Position numbers and translations under genes: made by a program
Assembly (NCBI GenBank): GCA_902572605.1
Contig: CACGGD010000001.1
Location: 1-64,000, forward strand
Direction of reading: 5' to 3'
From: an uncultured Pelagibacteraceae bacterium
Lineage (GTDB): Bacteria > Pseudomonadota > Alphaproteobacteria > Pelagibacterales > Pelagibacteraceae
Length of the DNA stretch: 64,000 bases
Notes under the pieces: model-generated
What the model was told of the DNA's origin: nothing
The model's input: the letters and a program-made list of their open reading frames with translations, nothing else
Databases searched by the model: none
Shown here: positions 30,069 through 36,789 of the stretch, piece after piece
Layout: every line of letters begins with the position of its first letter
How positions within the stretch are numbered: the stretch's first letter is position 1

Positions 30069-30590
30069 TTACAATTTAATCGAGTCCTTCAACCTTTCTT
30101 TAAAATAATCCTCGTATGACTTATTGCAGGTTACAATATATTTGTCTTTCAAATTATATATGGTGCAATCTATTTTAGCTATCAAAGTTTGAGCCATTGT
30201 AAAAGCTGGAAATTTTTTTAAACGCAAATCAAAATGAGTTAATTGATTTAAAAATTCATTTTTATTTTTTCCAGAAATTTCAAAGTAAACTTGACCATAA
30301 GAATAATCCGAAGCAAGAATTTCATCATTTGAATTAATTTTAGAAATAAACTTCAAAATTTCTTTATAATCCTGTTCTACTAAATAAATCAGACTCCACT
30401 GATCAAAGGAATTTTTTGCAAATATAAATTTATCATTTGTTGTTACCTCAAGATTTTTAGATGGAGGAAATGTGGAGATTTCCTGGTTTATTTTTTCATT
30501 AAATTGATCTTTTCCATCACCTCTAATGATGATCTGCTGAAAATTTTTTTGAGAAATATCTATGCCTTGAGATGATAATAATTGTGTCAT
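30069..30590 (-). CDS. soxG: Sarcosine oxidase gamma subunit (SoxG)
   Basis: Small subunit of heterotetrameric sarcosine oxidase, 173 residues. Sequence is weakly conserved, but the pattern FDLRLKKFPAFTMAQTLIAKID resembles SoxG, and the gene overlaps soxA by 4 bases as in other sox operons. It resembles a GcvT-like fragment that helps assemble the complex. Identification leans on gene order. Confidence 0.85.
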   Translation of the reverse strand: MTQLLSSQGIDISQKNFQQIIIRGDGKDQFNEKINQEISTFPPSKNLEVTTNDKFIFAKNSFDQWSLIYLVEQDYKEILKFISKINSNDEILASDYSYGQVYFEISGKNKNEFLNQLTHFDLRLKKFPAFTMAQTLIAKIDCTIYNLKDKYIVTCNKSYEDYFKERLKDSIKL

Positions 30591-33574
30591 GATACTAACC
30601 TCTTATTTTCTGGATCAATAAAAACTGGACTAACAACCTCAACCGGTATGTTTTTAGTTCCATAAGTTGAAGAGACAAATAATTTACTACCCATAAGTTT
30701 GTTACCTCCTTTTATCATTGCCATTGCAATACAGTGGTTAAGATTAGGGCTATGGTAGCTTGATGAAACATGGCCAAGATATTCTACTGGAGTTGTTATT
30801 CGTTTAGGCAACCTCTCACATTCTACAACATGTTGCCCTTCTTCGATAAATTCAGATTTATCTAGGGGAATAATTCCAACTAATTGTTTTCGATCATCTC
30901 GAGATGTATCGCTTCTAGTTAAAGACCTTTTTCCAATAAAATCTTTTTTCTTTTTACCTATCATCCAATTAAAATTTAAATCGAGAGGTGTTACGGTTCC
31001 ATCAGTCTCTTGACCTATTACAACATAGCCTTTTTCTGCTCTCAACAAATGCATTGTTTCTGTACCATAAGGCACAAGATCATACGCTTTTCCGAAATGA
31101 AATATTTTTTTCCATAGTTCCAAAGCTTTATTAGGAGTTATATAAATCTCATATCCAAGTTCTCCGGTAAAACTAGCTCTCATGACTCTAACTTCTGTAT
31201 CCATGTAATCAAAAACTTTAAAAGTCATAAAAGGAAAGTTCTCATTACTAAAATCAACATCAGTAAATACTTTGCTCACTATATCTCTTGATTTTGGGCC
31301 ACTAATATTAAATGTGCTAAATTGTTCAGTAATTGAATTCACATAAACTTGAAGATGTGGCCATTCAGTTTGAAGATATTCTTCCATATCAGCTAAAACT
31401 TTAGGAGCTCCCCCTGAAGTAGTCGTTACTATAAAATGTTTATCATTAAATTTGCAGACAATACCATCATCTTTTATCATTCCATCTTCACCTAACATAA
31501 GAGCATACCTCGATGTCATTGGTTTCATTTTAGTAAATGCATTTGTGTACATAAGATTCATAAATTCCAATGCATCTTTTCCTTTAATTTCTATTTTTCC
31601 AAGAGTACTTCCATCTAAAATTCCAGCAGTCTTTCTTGTTTGTTCTGACTCTCTTTGTACAGCTAGATGCATACTTTCCATTTCAAATTTTTTAAAATAC
31701 CATGGTCTTTTCCATTGACCAACGTCTTCAAAAACTGCTTTGTTATCTATGTGCCAATTATGAATAGGAGTTTTTCTTTCAGGATCATAAAATTCATAAG
31801 TATTCCTCCCAGCAATAGCTGAAAAACTAAGTGGAGCGTAAGGAGGTCTATAAGTTGTTGTTCCTACTTCAGAGATTTTCTTTTTTAAAATTTTTGACAC
31901 TATTCCTAAAGAATTAATACTGCTAATCTTTCCTTGATCAGTGCCCATGCTATTTGTGGTAAAACGTTTTAGGTGTTCGATACGATCAAAACCTTCTTTT
32001 ACAGCTTGTTTAAGATCTTTTGTTGTTACATCATTATGTAAATCTATGAAAGATTTAGACCAATTAGATTTTTTTTCATGCTTTGTTTCCCAAAGTTCCT
32101 GTATATTAAAATTATTACTGCCATTCAGCTCTATATTTAATTTAATATTTTTTGCTTTTAAAAAAGATAATTTATTATTAATTTCCTCAATAGTTTTTTC
32201 GTAGTTATAATTTCCACTAACAGATCCTAGGGTAATAGTATTTTGAAAAGGTACATCAGGTTTAAAAGCAAGGAGTTTATCATCCCATTTAACCAATCCT
32301 TTTGATTGAGTGAACAAATGTATATCTGGATTTAAACCTCCAGATATACAAAGCATCGAAGATTTTACTTTAATAGTTTTATTTCTAGATATTCTAATTG
32401 ATATGGTCTTTACCTTTTTATTTCCATCACATCCCTCTACTTCTGAATTAATATAAAAAGGAATATTATTTTTCTCTAAATATTTTAAAAGCTTACTTCC
32501 TATTTTGTTTTTGTTTCTTGCATCTACATAAGCAGCTGGCTTATGACCAAGATCTACCAAAGATTTTAAAAGAGTTCCAGTTGATGAATTATTTGTAAAA
32601 ATTACTGGATTAGTTTCAGGAACCACTCCGTATCGATAGATATATTTTTCAAAAGATGAAGCTAGCATTACTCCAGGCAAATCATTATTTCTAAAAGAAA
32701 TAAATCGTTCTATATGACCATTAGCCAAGATAGTATGTGTTGTCCTAATTTTATGGAGAGTTAACTCAGGTTTATTTTTATCAATTTTTTTGCCGACACA
32801 TTTATCTTCTAAGGCGATTAAATGGTTTGTAAAATTGTAGGAAGTTACTAAAGAGTTTTTTAATATTTTTATGTTTTTTGAAGCATTTATCAGTTTTTCA
32901 GTTTCTTTTATCCATTCAATAGGTTTTTTATTATTAATCTTTTTTACTTTATTTAAATTTCTTAATACTCCTCCTAAAAAACTGTCTTGTTCTAAAATTA
33001 AGACGTCATATTGTGTATCAATCAATTTTCTTGCAGCGATTAATCCACTTAAACCTCCACCAACAATAACAATATCTGCGTTATGATTTTGGTGGATACT
33101 TTTAGACCTGAATTCCTTAGGTGGTTTGCCAAGTCCGGCCGTTCTTCTTATTACTGGCTCATAAATTCTTTTCCAGAACCCTTTTGGACCCATGAAAGTT
33201 TTATAATAAAAACCTGCAGAAAACATAGGAGATAACAGATTATTAATTGATCCAATATCTATATTAAGAGATGGCCAACGATTTTGACTGCTAACTCTTA
33301 TTCCTTCATAAATTTTTTTTACAGTAGCTCTAGTATTAGGTTCATTATGCTCATTTAAAATCTGAACAATTCCGTTTGGTTCTTCTATTCCACAAGTGTA
33401 TATTCCTCTGGGTCTATGATACTTAAAACTTCTAGCAACCAGCTTGACGTTATTTCTTAATAAAGCTGAAGCAATTGTATCTCCCTCATAACCAACATAT
33501 TTTTTTCCATCAAATTTAAAAGAAACCTCTTTATCGCTTATATAAGAAGATTGTTTGTTATCTGCAGCACTCAT
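30587..33574 (-). CDS. soxA: Sarcosine oxidase alpha subunit (SoxA)
   Basis: Large subunit of heterotetrameric sarcosine oxidase, 995 residues, the expected size. Residues about 15-100 form a ferredoxin-like (Fer2_4) domain without iron-sulphur cysteines, residues about 165-480 a dinucleotide domain with VGGGLSG at 171-177 (NAD binding in known enzymes), and residues about 590-995 a GcvT-like folate domain. The complex oxidises sarcosine to glycine, producing H2O2 and 5,10-methylene-tetrahydrofolate (or formaldehyde). Gene order soxB-soxD-soxA-soxG is canonical. Confidence 0.96.
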   Translation of the reverse strand: MSAADNKQSSYISDKEVSFKFDGKKYVGYEGDTIASALLRNNVKLVARSFKYHRPRGIYTCGIEEPNGIVQILNEHNEPNTRATVKKIYEGIRVSSQNRWPSLNIDIGSINNLLSPMFSAGFYYKTFMGPKGFWKRIYEPVIRRTAGLGKPPKEFRSKSIHQNHNADIVIVGGGLSGLIAARKLIDTQYDVLILEQDSFLGGVLRNLNKVKKINNKKPIEWIKETEKLINASKNIKILKNSLVTSYNFTNHLIALEDKCVGKKIDKNKPELTLHKIRTTHTILANGHIERFISFRNNDLPGVMLASSFEKYIYRYGVVPETNPVIFTNNSSTGTLLKSLVDLGHKPAAYVDARNKNKIGSKLLKYLEKNNIPFYINSEVEGCDGNKKVKTISIRISRNKTIKVKSSMLCISGGLNPDIHLFTQSKGLVKWDDKLLAFKPDVPFQNTITLGSVSGNYNYEKTIEEINNKLSFLKAKNIKLNIELNGSNNFNIQELWETKHEKKSNWSKSFIDLHNDVTTKDLKQAVKEGFDRIEHLKRFTTNSMGTDQGKISSINSLGIVSKILKKKISEVGTTTYRPPYAPLSFSAIAGRNTYEFYDPERKTPIHNWHIDNKAVFEDVGQWKRPWYFKKFEMESMHLAVQRESEQTRKTAGILDGSTLGKIEIKGKDALEFMNLMYTNAFTKMKPMTSRYALMLGEDGMIKDDGIVCKFNDKHFIVTTTSGGAPKVLADMEEYLQTEWPHLQVYVNSITEQFSTFNISGPKSRDIVSKVFTDVDFSNENFPFMTFKVFDYMDTEVRVMRASFTGELGYEIYITPNKALELWKKIFHFGKAYDLVPYGTETMHLLRAEKGYVVIGQETDGTVTPLDLNFNWMIGKKKKDFIGKRSLTRSDTSRDDRKQLVGIIPLDKSEFIEEGQHVVECERLPKRITTPVEYLGHVSSSYHSPNLNHCIAMAMIKGGNKLMGSKLFVSSTYGTKNIPVEVVSPVFIDPENKRLVS

Positions 33575-33577
33575 AAT

Positions 33578-33928
33578 TTATTTCTTTACGGTAAAATTTC
33601 CTGATCCCACTTTCGGCTCTCCCGAAGGTGTTTTTAAAGTGTTTGAAAAACTTTCTTTACTTGGCGGATTTTCTCCTAATTTATAAATTTTTAATATTTC
33701 ATCTGTAGATGTGTTTCTAACAGCATTAAACCATTTTCTACATCCATGAGTATGAACCCATCGTTCATAAAAAATTCCTTTAGGATTGTCTCGATAAAAA
33801 ACATACTGTCCCCAGTCCTTATCATTAAGATGATCAGAATTTTCTGGTCTTGCTACGTGAGCTTCACCTCCACTAGAAAACTCTGATTGATCTCTTTCTC
33901 CACAATATGGGCAATTTATTAAAATCAT
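33578..33928 (-). CDS. soxD: Sarcosine oxidase delta subunit (SoxD)
   Basis: Zinc-binding subunit of 116 residues, slightly longer than many SoxD. Ligands expected for the zinc are C6 and C9 (CPYCG), H59 and C63 (WVHTHGCRKWFN). The RDNPKGIFYERWVH motif is typical. It is 2-3 bases from both soxB and soxA, so it is cotranscribed. Confidence 0.96.
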   Translation of the reverse strand: MILINCPYCGERDQSEFSSGGEAHVARPENSDHLNDKDWGQYVFYRDNPKGIFYERWVHTHGCRKWFNAVRNTSTDEILKIYKLGENPPSKESFSNTLKTPSGEPKVGSGNFTVKK

Positions 33929-33930
33929 AT

Positions 33931-35181
33931 CTAATGCGCTACTGCTGCTGCTCCATGTTCATCTATAAGTCTGCCGTCAGAAAATCTTTCCAAATTAAAA
34001 GGAGCATTTATTTTGTGCGGTTCATCTTTAGCTACAGTATATGCAAAAACATTAGCACTACCCGGCGTTGCTTTAAAACCACCCGTTCCCCAACCACAAT
34101 TAAAATATAATCCCTTTACTTCGCACTTACTTATTATTGGGCTGGCATCTGGACAAATATCTACTATACCTCCCCACTGACGTAACATTTTCATTTTTCC
34201 AAATATTGGATATAGCTCTACGATAGCACGTACGGTCTCTTCAATAACATCATAGCCGCCTCTTTGAGTGAATGAATTGTATCCATCAGTTCCTGCTCCA
34301 ATAACTAATTCACCCTTATCTGATTGACTAACATAAGCGTGAACAGCATTGGACATTACCACTGTATTAATTACAGGTTTAATAGGTTCAGAAACTAAAG
34401 CTTGCAAAGGTCTGCTTTGGAGGGGCAATCTTACGCCCGCAGTTTTTGCTAACACACTTGTATGACCAGAAGCTACTACCGCTACCTTCTTGGCTTTTAT
34501 AAATCCCTTAGAAGTTTTAACTCCTTCAACTTTACCATTTCTTGTTTTAATATTCTGAACTTCACAATTTTGAATTATATCAACTCCCATTTCATCAGCC
34601 CTCATTGCAAAACCCCAAGCAATAGCATCATGTCTAGCCACTCCTCCTCTTGGTTGAAAAGCAGCGCCTAATACAGGATATCTTAAATTGTCCGTGTTCA
34701 TTATAGGAACTAATCTTTTAATTTCATTTGTCTCTAACCATCGAGTATCAAGTCCATTAAGTCTATTAGCACTTATTCTTCTTTTCATTTCTTTGATATC
34801 ATGCTCATTGTGAGCCAAATTCATCACGCCTCTTTGGCTAAACATCATATTGTAATTAAGTTCTTGAGATAAATTTTCCCATAGCTTTACCGAGTGATCA
34901 TAAAGAAATGCACTTTCATTCCACAGATAATTAGATCTTATAATTGTAGTATTTCGACCAGTGTTTCCACTTCCTATCCAGCCTTTTTCTATAACTGCAA
35001 TATTTTTTACTCCATGCTCTTTTGCTAAATAATAAGCCGTACCTAATCCATGTCCTCCGCCACCTACTATAATCACATCATAGGTCTTTTTAGGTTCAGG
35101 GTTCTTCCACATCTTTTGCCAATTTTCATTATTGGAAAAAGCATTTTTTATAAGGGTAAAAATTGAATATTTTTTTTTCAC
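33931..35181 (-). CDS. soxB: Sarcosine oxidase beta subunit (SoxB)
   Basis: Catalytic flavoprotein subunit, 416 residues. FAD motif GGGGHG is at 40-45, and the ARHD segment contains H184, corresponding to the histidine that carries FMN covalently in the family. The start is GTG (35179-35181). This choice rests on the conserved N-terminal [11 protein letters not shown]...NWQKMW, which homologues carry from near residue 3; the first internal ATG would remove it. First gene of soxBDAG, divergent from the metY riboswitch. Confidence 0.95.
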
Positions 35182-35284: not shown

Positions 35285-35313
35285 TTGACAGTAATTCAGA
35301 AAGATTGTTAAGT
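35285..35313 (+). promoter_or_regulatory. Predicted promoter of the metY leader
   Basis: A perfect -35 TTGACA (35285-35290) and a -10-like TTAAGT (35308-35313) are spaced by 17 bases. The expected start near 35320 falls exactly at the first stem of the SAM-II aptamer, as would be needed for a riboswitch leader. Confidence 0.65.
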
Positions 35314-35317
35314 GTTA

Positions 35318-35376
35318 TTAGCGCTGATTTAATTCAAATTGCTGAGCGCTCAACAAATCCAGCTAAAGCGACAAAG
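35318..35376 (+). promoter_or_regulatory. SAM-II riboswitch aptamer
   Basis: P1 is AGCGCT (35320-35325) pairing with AGCGCT (35345-35350). It is followed directly by the conserved GATTTAA (35326-35332) and later by AGCTAAAG (35361-35368), matching the SAM-II consensus order. It senses S-adenosylmethionine. The 3' part GCTAAAGCG (35362-35370) is perfectly complementary to CGCTTTAGC (35389-35397) in the following terminator, giving an antiterminator when SAM is absent. Confidence 0.88.
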
Positions 35377-35383
35377 TCTAATG

Positions 35384-35412
35384 ACCACCGCTTTAGCCGG
35401 TGGTTTTTTTTT
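35384..35412 (+). terminator. Riboswitch-controlled terminator (expression platform of SAM-II)
   Basis: Stem ACCACCG (35384-35390) with CGGTGGT (35398-35404), 7-base loop, followed by a run of nine T. Its left arm and loop also pair with the aptamer's 3' strand, so the structures exclude each other. High SAM should hold the aptamer closed and allow termination. Confidence 0.85.
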
Positions 35413-35432
35413 GAAATTTTATCAAATTAAAA

Positions 35433-35490
35433 CCGGGTATTTGAACTATATTGTACACCCGACATTTCGTCAAAGTACTAAAAAAGGAGA
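35433..35490 (+). promoter_or_regulatory. SAM-V riboswitch aptamer before metY
   Basis: After the terminator, CGGGT (35434-35438) pairs with ACCCG (35457-35461), followed by GACATTTCGTCAAAGTACT and an A-rich run joined to the ribosome-binding site AAGGAG (35484-35489). TTTG (35440-35443) can pair with CAAA (35471-35474) as the pseudoknot. This matches the SAM-V class of marine bacteria, which blocks the ribosome-binding site when SAM is bound. The start codon lies 7 bases further on. Confidence 0.82.
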
Positions 35491-35496
35491 AAATAA

Positions 35497-36789
35497 ATGG
35501 CTAATTTTAAACATCCAGAAACTATTGGGTTACACGGTGGTGAATATAGAAGCGACCCCGCAACTACTGCAGTAGCTGTTCCAATTTATCAAACTTCTTC
35601 ATACCAATTTAAAAATGCTGAAACTGCTGCAAATTTATTTGGTTTGAAAGAATTTGGAAATATTTACACACGTATCATGAATCCAACATGTGATGTTCTT
35701 GAGAAAAGAGTTGCTGCATTAGAAGGTGGTTTAGCTTCAGTAGCAGTTGGTTCTGGTCAAGCAGCATCAGCCTTTAGTGTACAAAATGTAGCACAAGCTG
35801 GTGATAATGTTGTTGCTTCTACAGATTTATATGGAGGAACAGTAAATTTATTTAAAAATACTTTAAGACAACAAGGTATTGAAGTTAGATTTGCAGATCC
35901 AGCTGACCCAAAAAACTTTGAGAAGTTGACAGATAATAAAACAAGAGCTTACTACGGTGAATCTTGTCCAAATCCTTATCTTCGAGTTTTTCCAATTAAA
36001 GAGGTTGCAGATATTGGTAGAAAAAAAGGAATACCTTTAATTATAGACAACACTGCTTCCCCTGTAATATGTAAACCTTTGGCTCATGGTGCTGCAGTAG
36101 TAATACACTCTTTGACAAAATATATTGGAGGTCACGGAACTTCTATAGGTGGAATCATTGTAGATGGTGGTAACTTTGACTGGACAAAAGACAGAAAAAG
36201 ACAACCATTAATGAACGAACCTGATCAAAGTTATGGTGGCGCTATATGGGCAGATGCAGTTCCTCAGCTAACAGGAGCTAATATTCCTTTTGCAATTAGA
36301 GCAAGAGTGGTTTTACTTAGAGACTTAGGTGCTCCATTAAGTCCATTCAATGCTTTCCAAATTATTCAAGGTTTGGAAACTGTTGCTCTTAGAATGAAAC
36401 AACATTGCAGTAATGCTGAGAAAGTTGTCTCTTTCTTAGAAACGCAAAAGAAAGTTAAAAATATAATCTACCCTACTAATCATCAAGGTGAGATTAAAGA
36501 AAGAGCTAAGAAATACATGCAAGGTGGGTATGGATCATTAGTTGGAATGGATGTTGGTACTAGAGAAGCTGGTTCTAAATTCATTGACAATTTAAAGTTG
36601 CTTTATCATGTTGCTAACATTGGTGATGCTAGAAGTTTAGCGATACATCCTGCTACTACAACTCATAGTCAGTTAAATGATGAAGAATTATTAGCTGCTG
36701 GTGTAACACCAGGTTATGTAAGACTTTCAATTGGTATTGAACACCCTGACGATATCATTGCAGACATTAAACAAGCATTAGCTGCTTAA
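35497..36789 (+). CDS. metY: O-acetylhomoserine sulfhydrylase / aminocarboxypropyltransferase
   Basis: PLP enzyme making homocysteine from O-acetylhomoserine and a sulphur donor. The 430-residue length and the start ETIGLHGGEYRSDPATTA fit MetY rather than shorter MetZ. The PLP lysine is K208 in HSLTKYIGGHG. The double SAM riboswitch in its leader supports a role in methionine/SAM supply. Reduced sulphur is scarce for SAR11-like cells that cannot reduce sulphate, so methanethiol or sulphide may be used directly; this is background inference. Confidence 0.95.
   Translation: MANFKHPETIGLHGGEYRSDPATTAVAVPIYQTSSYQFKNAETAANLFGLKEFGNIYTRIMNPTCDVLEKRVAALEGGLASVAVGSGQAASAFSVQNVAQAGDNVVASTDLYGGTVNLFKNTLRQQGIEVRFADPADPKNFEKLTDNKTRAYYGESCPNPYLRVFPIKEVADIGRKKGIPLIIDNTASPVICKPLAHGAAVVIHSLTKYIGGHGTSIGGIIVDGGNFDWTKDRKRQPLMNEPDQSYGGAIWADAVPQLTGANIPFAIRARVVLLRDLGAPLSPFNAFQIIQGLETVALRMKQHCSNAEKVVSFLETQKKVKNIIYPTNHQGEIKERAKKYMQGGYGSLVGMDVGTREAGSKFIDNLKLLYHVANIGDARSLAIHPATTTHSQLNDEELLAAGVTPGYVRLSIGIEHPDDIIADIKQALAA

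Follow-up and report, generated by a model that had tools for sequence, protein, structure and literature searches.

A tandem SAM-II/SAM-V leader of metY in an uncultured Pelagibacteraceae bacterium, with a conserved strand shared by aptamer and antiterminator

The window analysed here is a 64,000-nt contig stretch of an uncultured Pelagibacteraceae bacterium, and the locus of interest is the metY leader on its + strand. Very probably, this leader is repressed by SAM through two sensors of different timing, SAM-II stopping transcription and SAM-V blocking translation. By direct reading, the leader has TTGACA first, then SAM-II, then an intrinsic terminator with its nine T, and after this SAM-V and AAGGAG; the metY ATG is at 35497. 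The order and coordinates given in a preliminary description of the locus were confirmed.

In the proposed mechanism, the SAM-II aptamer would be transcribed first. With SAM bound, its P2 helix would hold GCUAAA, the terminator would form and transcription would stop. Without SAM, GCUAAAGCG would pair with the emerging CGCUUUAGC before the 3′ arm of the terminator is complete, and the polymerase would read on. In the read-through mRNA, SAM-V would bind SAM and cover AAGGAG, leaving metY untranslated; both stages would lower metY when SAM is plentiful. From the sequence of the leader, we infer SAM binding by both RNAs of the window, termination and control of the ribosome site. Statements on the papers cited by PMC number refer to the parts of those papers that were available to us.

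The metY leader and its two aptamers

The metY gene (35497–36789, + strand) encodes a 430-aa protein of the O-acetylhomoserine aminocarboxypropyltransferase family (561.1 bits with TIGR01326, cut-off 495.1). Sarcosine oxidase-type genes are located divergently from metY on the minus strand (30069–35181), their beta and delta families scoring above cut-off and alpha slightly below; the neighbours are otherwise ordinary as far as seen. Upstream of the aptamers lies the candidate −35 element TTGACA (35285–35290, + strand). TTGACA is frequent in the upstream stretches of the genus, it was found within 60 bases 5′ of P1 in 96 of 118 own-genus leaders (at −37 in 73 and at −36 in 22). The weak −10 candidate TTAAGT (35308–35313, + strand), which was assigned by position only, is 17 bases 3′ of TTGACA and of poor consensus; a consensus promoter scan reported no + strand promoter at the metY leader. 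Owing to the poor −10 candidate, the promoter of the preliminary description is taken as plausible, its −35 element being present and its −10 element remaining doubtful.

The SAM-V aptamer (35426–35492, + strand) scored 71.5 bits with RF01826 (gathering score 41); nothing else in the 64-kb window matches an Rfam model at gathering level. The match includes the ribosome-binding site at its 3′ end: it extends through the Shine–Dalgarno sequence AAGGAG (35484–35489, + strand), which is directly 3′ of the SAM-V core, as had been described for this locus. When the leader is folded as a whole, the end of the terminator and the T tract pair with AAAACC just 5′ of SAM-V (35402–35435), a computed pairing that is a possible link between the two stages.

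The SAM-II aptamer occupies 35316–35374 on the + strand. Helix P1 is formed by 35320–35325 and 35345–35350, and P2 by 35339–35342 and 35362–35366, with 35364 left for SAM. SAM-II RNAs are characterized by a P1/P2 pseudoknot, GAUUU in L1, UUGC, and GCUAAA in the 3′ strand, a motif that is in part the RF00521 consensus. All these elements are present in the window aptamer, the core of which reads GCGCTGATTTAA..AATTGC..GAGCGC..GCTAAA. With RF00521 itself, the aptamer reached 15.3 bits, below the gathering score of 36 that serves as the Rfam working criterion. Searching Rfam for SAM-II, whether with gathering cut-offs or with E values up to 1, returned nothing; RF00521 listed the aptamer only when the query was a stretch of 121 bases and E values up to 10 were allowed. 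The preliminary description had proposed a covariance search with both Rfam models as its check and the lack of a significant match as its refutation; SAM-V came through this check, whereas the SAM-II half fails it if Rfam alone counts.

RF00521 is too narrow here, because a published SAM binder, the SAM-II aptamer of the bhmT tandem of HTCC1062 (KD 1.2 μM, cited in PMC5069961), fails the cut-off as well. In this control, the bhmT-tandem and metX SAM-II aptamers of HTCC1062 scored 15.5 and 26.7 bits, respectively, so that SAM-II fell below the RF00521 cut-off in both SAR11 genomes tried, the window's and HTCC1062. We therefore relied on an independent model built from 13 SAM-II aptamers of other genera, with zero own-genus members. 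It scored the window aptamer at 74.4 bits, with E values of 4.2e-18 in 120,212 bases and 3.1e-17 in the whole genome; at one of the other, weak matches of the SAM-II models in this genome (C2:190991), no SAM-II-like leader was seen on reading. In an alignment of 17 diverse SAM-II aptamers, no P1 or P2 cell is unpaired; both sides have changed in two pairs of P1, and P2 is invariant. When 99 genomes drawn from Pelagibacteraceae were searched with the same SAR11-built model, 95 had one or more SAM-II at E 0.001, and SAM-II is probably under-annotated in this family.

One base of the own-genus SAM-II aptamers departs from the usual motif. GATTTA is replaced by GAGTTA in 92 of 119 of them (e.g. 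L053) and by GACTTA in one, whereas position 35328 of the window carries the usual U. The changed base is U10, numbered among the SAM-II ligand-binding sites in PMC11508383; in our own alignment, its SAM-V counterpart touches U47, the base of SAM-V that pairs SAM (PMC6061858). Judged from sequence, the change may alter affinity or specificity.

A strand shared by aptamer and antiterminator

The intrinsic terminator (35383–35412, + strand), identified by pattern scan, has a stem formed by 35383–35390 and 35398–35405, a loop at 35391–35397 and nine T at 35404–35412. The end of its 5′ arm together with the loop constitutes the 3′ strand of the antiterminator, CGCUUUAGC (35389–35397, + strand; CGCTTTAGC by direct reading), as supported by fold and alignment. 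The 5′ strand, GCUAAAGCG (35362–35370, + strand; GCTAAAGCG by direct reading), is its exact complement, and the first five bases of this strand are the 3′ strand of P2. Because the antiterminator 5′ strand contains the P2 3′ strand, aptamer and antiterminator are mutually exclusive, as the preliminary description had argued from this perfect 9-base complement. Nine bases is also the longest Watson–Crick match between 35351–35376 and 35378–35410; 9 of 2000 dinucleotide-shuffled versions of the second stretch, which comprises linker and terminator, reach this length.

The minimum free energy fold of 35318–35412 is the antiterminator, at −26.3 kcal/mol compared to −20.6 kcal/mol for the terminator fold, and 3 of 200 shuffles were at least as good. 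It adds two outer pairs (35359–35360 with 35399–35400) and an inner GUC/GAC hairpin (35376–35385, + strand; 35376–35378 with 35383–35385), which takes bases of the terminator stem. When the growing chain was folded, the antiterminator was best at 35394 and at every later end tried, that is, before the terminator 3′ arm is complete; these folds omit the pseudoknot, SAM and kinetics.

The same arrangement occurs a second time in the window's genome. Another SAM-II aptamer (G000:C3:12524–12580, leader L292; 46 bits with the independent model) lies before metX, which was identified by NF001209. The metX terminator, GCCCAGTTTAGCTGGGC followed by nine T, has a stem different from that of metY; it likewise contains TTTAGCT, which is complementary to AGCTAAA, and these two strands are paired in the best fold.

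Among 151 own-genus genomes, 120 have a SAM-V match. The full unit is present in 119 of 122 own-genus loci, with GCTAAAGCG in all 119 and nine T in 118. Three loci lack it: L137 and L162 are compact-type leaders from a single genome flagged as 7% contaminated, and L185, a SAM-II leader, scores below the SAM-V cut-off. All nine antiterminator pairs, G-U counted, are kept in 117 of the 119 own-genus terminator strings; both leaders with a broken helix have A at the outermost place. Of 118 own-genus leaders, 102 have the antiterminator as minimum fold and 17 the terminator, one leader being a tie; among the 20 other leaders, the numbers are 12 and 8.

We also aligned 44 leaders from several genera and two families, hand-picked from 138. 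The antiterminator cells pair at 96.9%, compared to at most 52.5% for a slid register. At least one of the nine pairs is broken in 11 leaders, one in L075, L080, L084, L085, L089, L165, L176, L241 and L244 and two in L259 and L281. In L265, from another family, GCTAAAGTG faces CGCTTTAGT and all nine positions still pair via G-U. L281 is a tandem-like leader before a peroxiredoxin family protein, its SAM-V score being 28.7 and below cut-off; L259, also tandem-like, precedes a protein that matches methionine synthase weakly. The 44 leaders contain no antiterminator covariation: the strands vary too little, and none of the pairs has a two-sided change; shuffles of the 3′ letters equal the data. 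Covariation was therefore rejected as proof of the antiterminator, which is supported instead by conservation, fold energy and the second instance at metX. Overall, the earlier reading is upheld in its order of elements, riboswitch classes, terminator, exclusive pairing and adjoining ribosome site, all of which are present and conserved in the genus.

Published tandems and leader types among relatives

Tandem SAM-II/SAM-V leaders, together with their transcription-then-translation logic, have already been published (PMC9481103), with 120 original examples and 149 in a 2022 survey. In every original tandem, a terminator follows SAM-II and SAM-V lies at the ribosome site; the window leader has the three elements that define a tandem in that work, SAM-II, an intrinsic terminator and SAM-V at the ribosome site. 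Since both the pair and the two-level logic were described before, the window leader is a further tandem of the published class, with metY as its gene; that the class pair was known, as the preliminary description stated, is also evident from the tandem reported at bhmT in HTCC1062 (PMC5069961, PMC2704228). In this organism, sulfur depletion raises metY, bhmT and mmuM (PMC5069961). The bhmT tandem has the same order of SAM-II, nine-U terminator and SAM-V, and its antiterminator, of 8 pairs, is in the same place. Different from the window, its gene is bhmT and a second ribosome site is located further down, whereas the AAGGAG of the window is directly before the start. The metY SAM-V of HTCC1062, known from a crystal structure (PMC6061858), likewise precedes metY and has the ribosome site at its 3′ end. 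The SAM-II aptamer of Sinorhizobium meliloti metZ is predicted to favour a Rho-independent terminator, like that of the window; unlike the window, no following SAM-V is described for it in the available part of PMC9373788.

HTCC1062 metY and mmuM were reported with SAM-V alone (PMC5069961, PMC2704228), whereas the window metY has SAM-II and a terminator upstream. In both HTCC1062 leaders, we observed a compact SAM-II-like element without terminator (metY, L076:252–405; mmuM, L077:167–317; alignment A1). In genus g3, to which HTCC1062 belongs, there are 99 distinct leaders with GCCGAUUU..CC..UAUUGC.GGC..GCUAAA..GG just 5′ of SAM-V, with no nine-T run in between; two of them are from the contaminated own-genus genome, and the 147 loci scanned also comprised leaders of the terminator type, duplicates, wrongly cut stretches and some loci from other genera. 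Model R2, which contains no terminator-less elements, matched 14 of 15 loci at E 0.01 or better, HTCC1062 metY and mmuM included, and L042 at E 0.11. In the whole HTCC1062 genome, its sister model R1 gave mmuM only E 0.057 and did not list metY up to E 1. In the terminator-less elements, two P1 pairs are changed on both sides, the outermost pair is unpaired in 44 of 98, and P2 is invariant.

Just 5′ of SAM-V in these leaders, AAUCGGUA is complementary to UGCCGAUU of P1/L1, and 90.5% of the cells pair over the 99 leaders, among which no two-sided change was found in this duplex. It beats 95% of dinucleotide-shuffled linkers in 83 of the 99, the failures including several mmuM leaders. By pairing with P1/L1 of SAM-II, the AAUCGGUA strand could couple the two aptamers.

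The terminator-type leaders differ in what follows SAM-V. In 90 of 138 (80 own-genus), the SAM-V AAGGAG is followed by a CUUCUCC-like strand and then by a second GGAG or AGAGGA; in 37 (32 own-genus), AAGGAG is directly 5′ of metY, 10 were unclassified and one was too short. The window metY belongs to the direct group. SAM-V is followed by an anti-SD strand and another GGAG in L075 (HTCC1062 bhmT), L050, L053–L056, L058, L062–L074, L083–L088, L241 and L244. For 69 distinct segments, pairing of the anti-SD beats 95% of base shuffles with the first ribosome site in 68 and with the second in 64, HTCC1062 bhmT failing for the second (13 of 200). These leaders have lineage-specific compensated stems and often an ORF of 2–38 codons from the first ribosome site. 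To judge from these sequences, the SAM-V AAGGAG of such leaders looks like a decoy that relays to the real ribosome site downstream.

At 80 named metY loci (L301–L380), the SAM-V ribosome site is 90–94 bases upstream in 50 and 6–8 bases upstream in 15; the remaining 15 have no SAM-V by the pattern used in up to 420 bases upstream, and in one of them, HIMB058, coding sequence is upstream. A micro-ORF of ∼15 codons (e.g. MNETIRETVRGKING) overlaps the metY start in ∼50 of the 80, and may couple its translation to that of metY. The window metY has no micro-ORF, its start directly follows AAGGAG. Judged from these relatives, direct occlusion by SAM-V of the ribosome site of the gene itself would fit the window metY, where the preliminary description had noted that the two adjoin, but neither the bhmT leader of the published work nor most own-genus leaders examined. 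Among the parts of the SAM-riboswitch literature searched, the 2009 SAM-V paper aside, we found no description of a terminator-less SAM-II before SAM-V or of a decoy relay after SAM-V. The 2009 paper is reportedly the one in which SAM-V was named.

Timing of the two sensors and alternative readings

In the 177-base bhmT tandem of HTCC1062, SAM-II is silent to SAM, whereas the truncated SAM-II responds; PMC11508383 attributes the silence to the linker and states that the reason is not understood. Using the numbering of that paper, confirmed by its printed primers, bases 45–52 pair with 66–73, which is the same antiterminator with 8 pairs, and its computed occupancy in the first 167 bases is 0.997 at 37°C. 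In retrospect, the antiterminator offers a reason for the lost SAM-II response in the full-length RNA, because in refolded RNA it would bury the SAM-binding strand. The published rescue by an oligonucleotide is not reproduced by energy rules alone, since blocking 83–102, the site of published primer 3, barely shifts the terminator: at 37°C the antiterminator goes only down to 0.979 and the terminator only up to 0.018. Blocking 96–116, 100–120 or 125–144, which approximates primer 2 (98–117) and primer 1 (128–147), has practically no effect.

The silence of the bhmT SAM-II also fits an inactive SAM-II, and the same could be said of metY: SAM-II might be vestigial or rarely used, the terminator a fixed attenuator, and SAM-V the only regulator. 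The unresponsive full bhmT leader (PMC11508383) and an antiterminator computed to be so stable that read-through could be the default speak for this reading. We consider it unlikely, as every recognised leader of the own genus keeps the core and the P2 strands, P2 does not vary over the 17 aptamers, the truncated bhmT SAM-II does answer SAM (PMC11508383), and strand sharing between a SAM-II and a terminator loop occurs twice in one genome, with terminators that are unrelated. That same recurrence at metX, together with the 9 in 2000 shuffles and a terminator loop that is otherwise free to vary and yet stays complementary across the genus, makes it very unlikely that SAM-II controls the terminator by another route and that the complement is a by-product or chance, even though covariation is lacking and some other-genus members (L259, L281) keep a partial helix. 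S. meliloti SAM-II leaders yield riboswitch small RNAs (PMC9373788), and the main product of the first stage could likewise be a short terminated RNA acting in trans; nothing here points to a trans target, and we regard this as extremely improbable.

Under the preferred reading of SAM repression at two stages, a formed antiterminator would leave SAM-II hardly responsive; SAM-II would therefore sense mainly during transcription, and SAM-V would stay reversible. It is possible, if somewhat short of probable, that this extends to the SAR11 tandems jointly. SAM-II would then be a one-shot sensor at transcription time, its SAM-binding strand being buried by the antiterminator, and SAM-V a reversible one, which would explain the silent refolded bhmT SAM-II. 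The tandems would form a platform family with a terminator type (the window), a terminator-less type (Pelagibacter metY and mmuM), in which the strand 5′ of SAM-V could couple the aptamers, and a relay type, in which the SAM-V AAGGAG would be a decoy holding or freeing the anti-SD for the downstream ribosome site.

SAR11 bacteria count among the ocean's most abundant cells. They rely on these RNAs in their sulfur economy (PMC5069961), and an explicit, conserved antiterminator makes the puzzle of bhmT, a sound SAM-II aptamer that is silent in the full leader, experimentally addressable.
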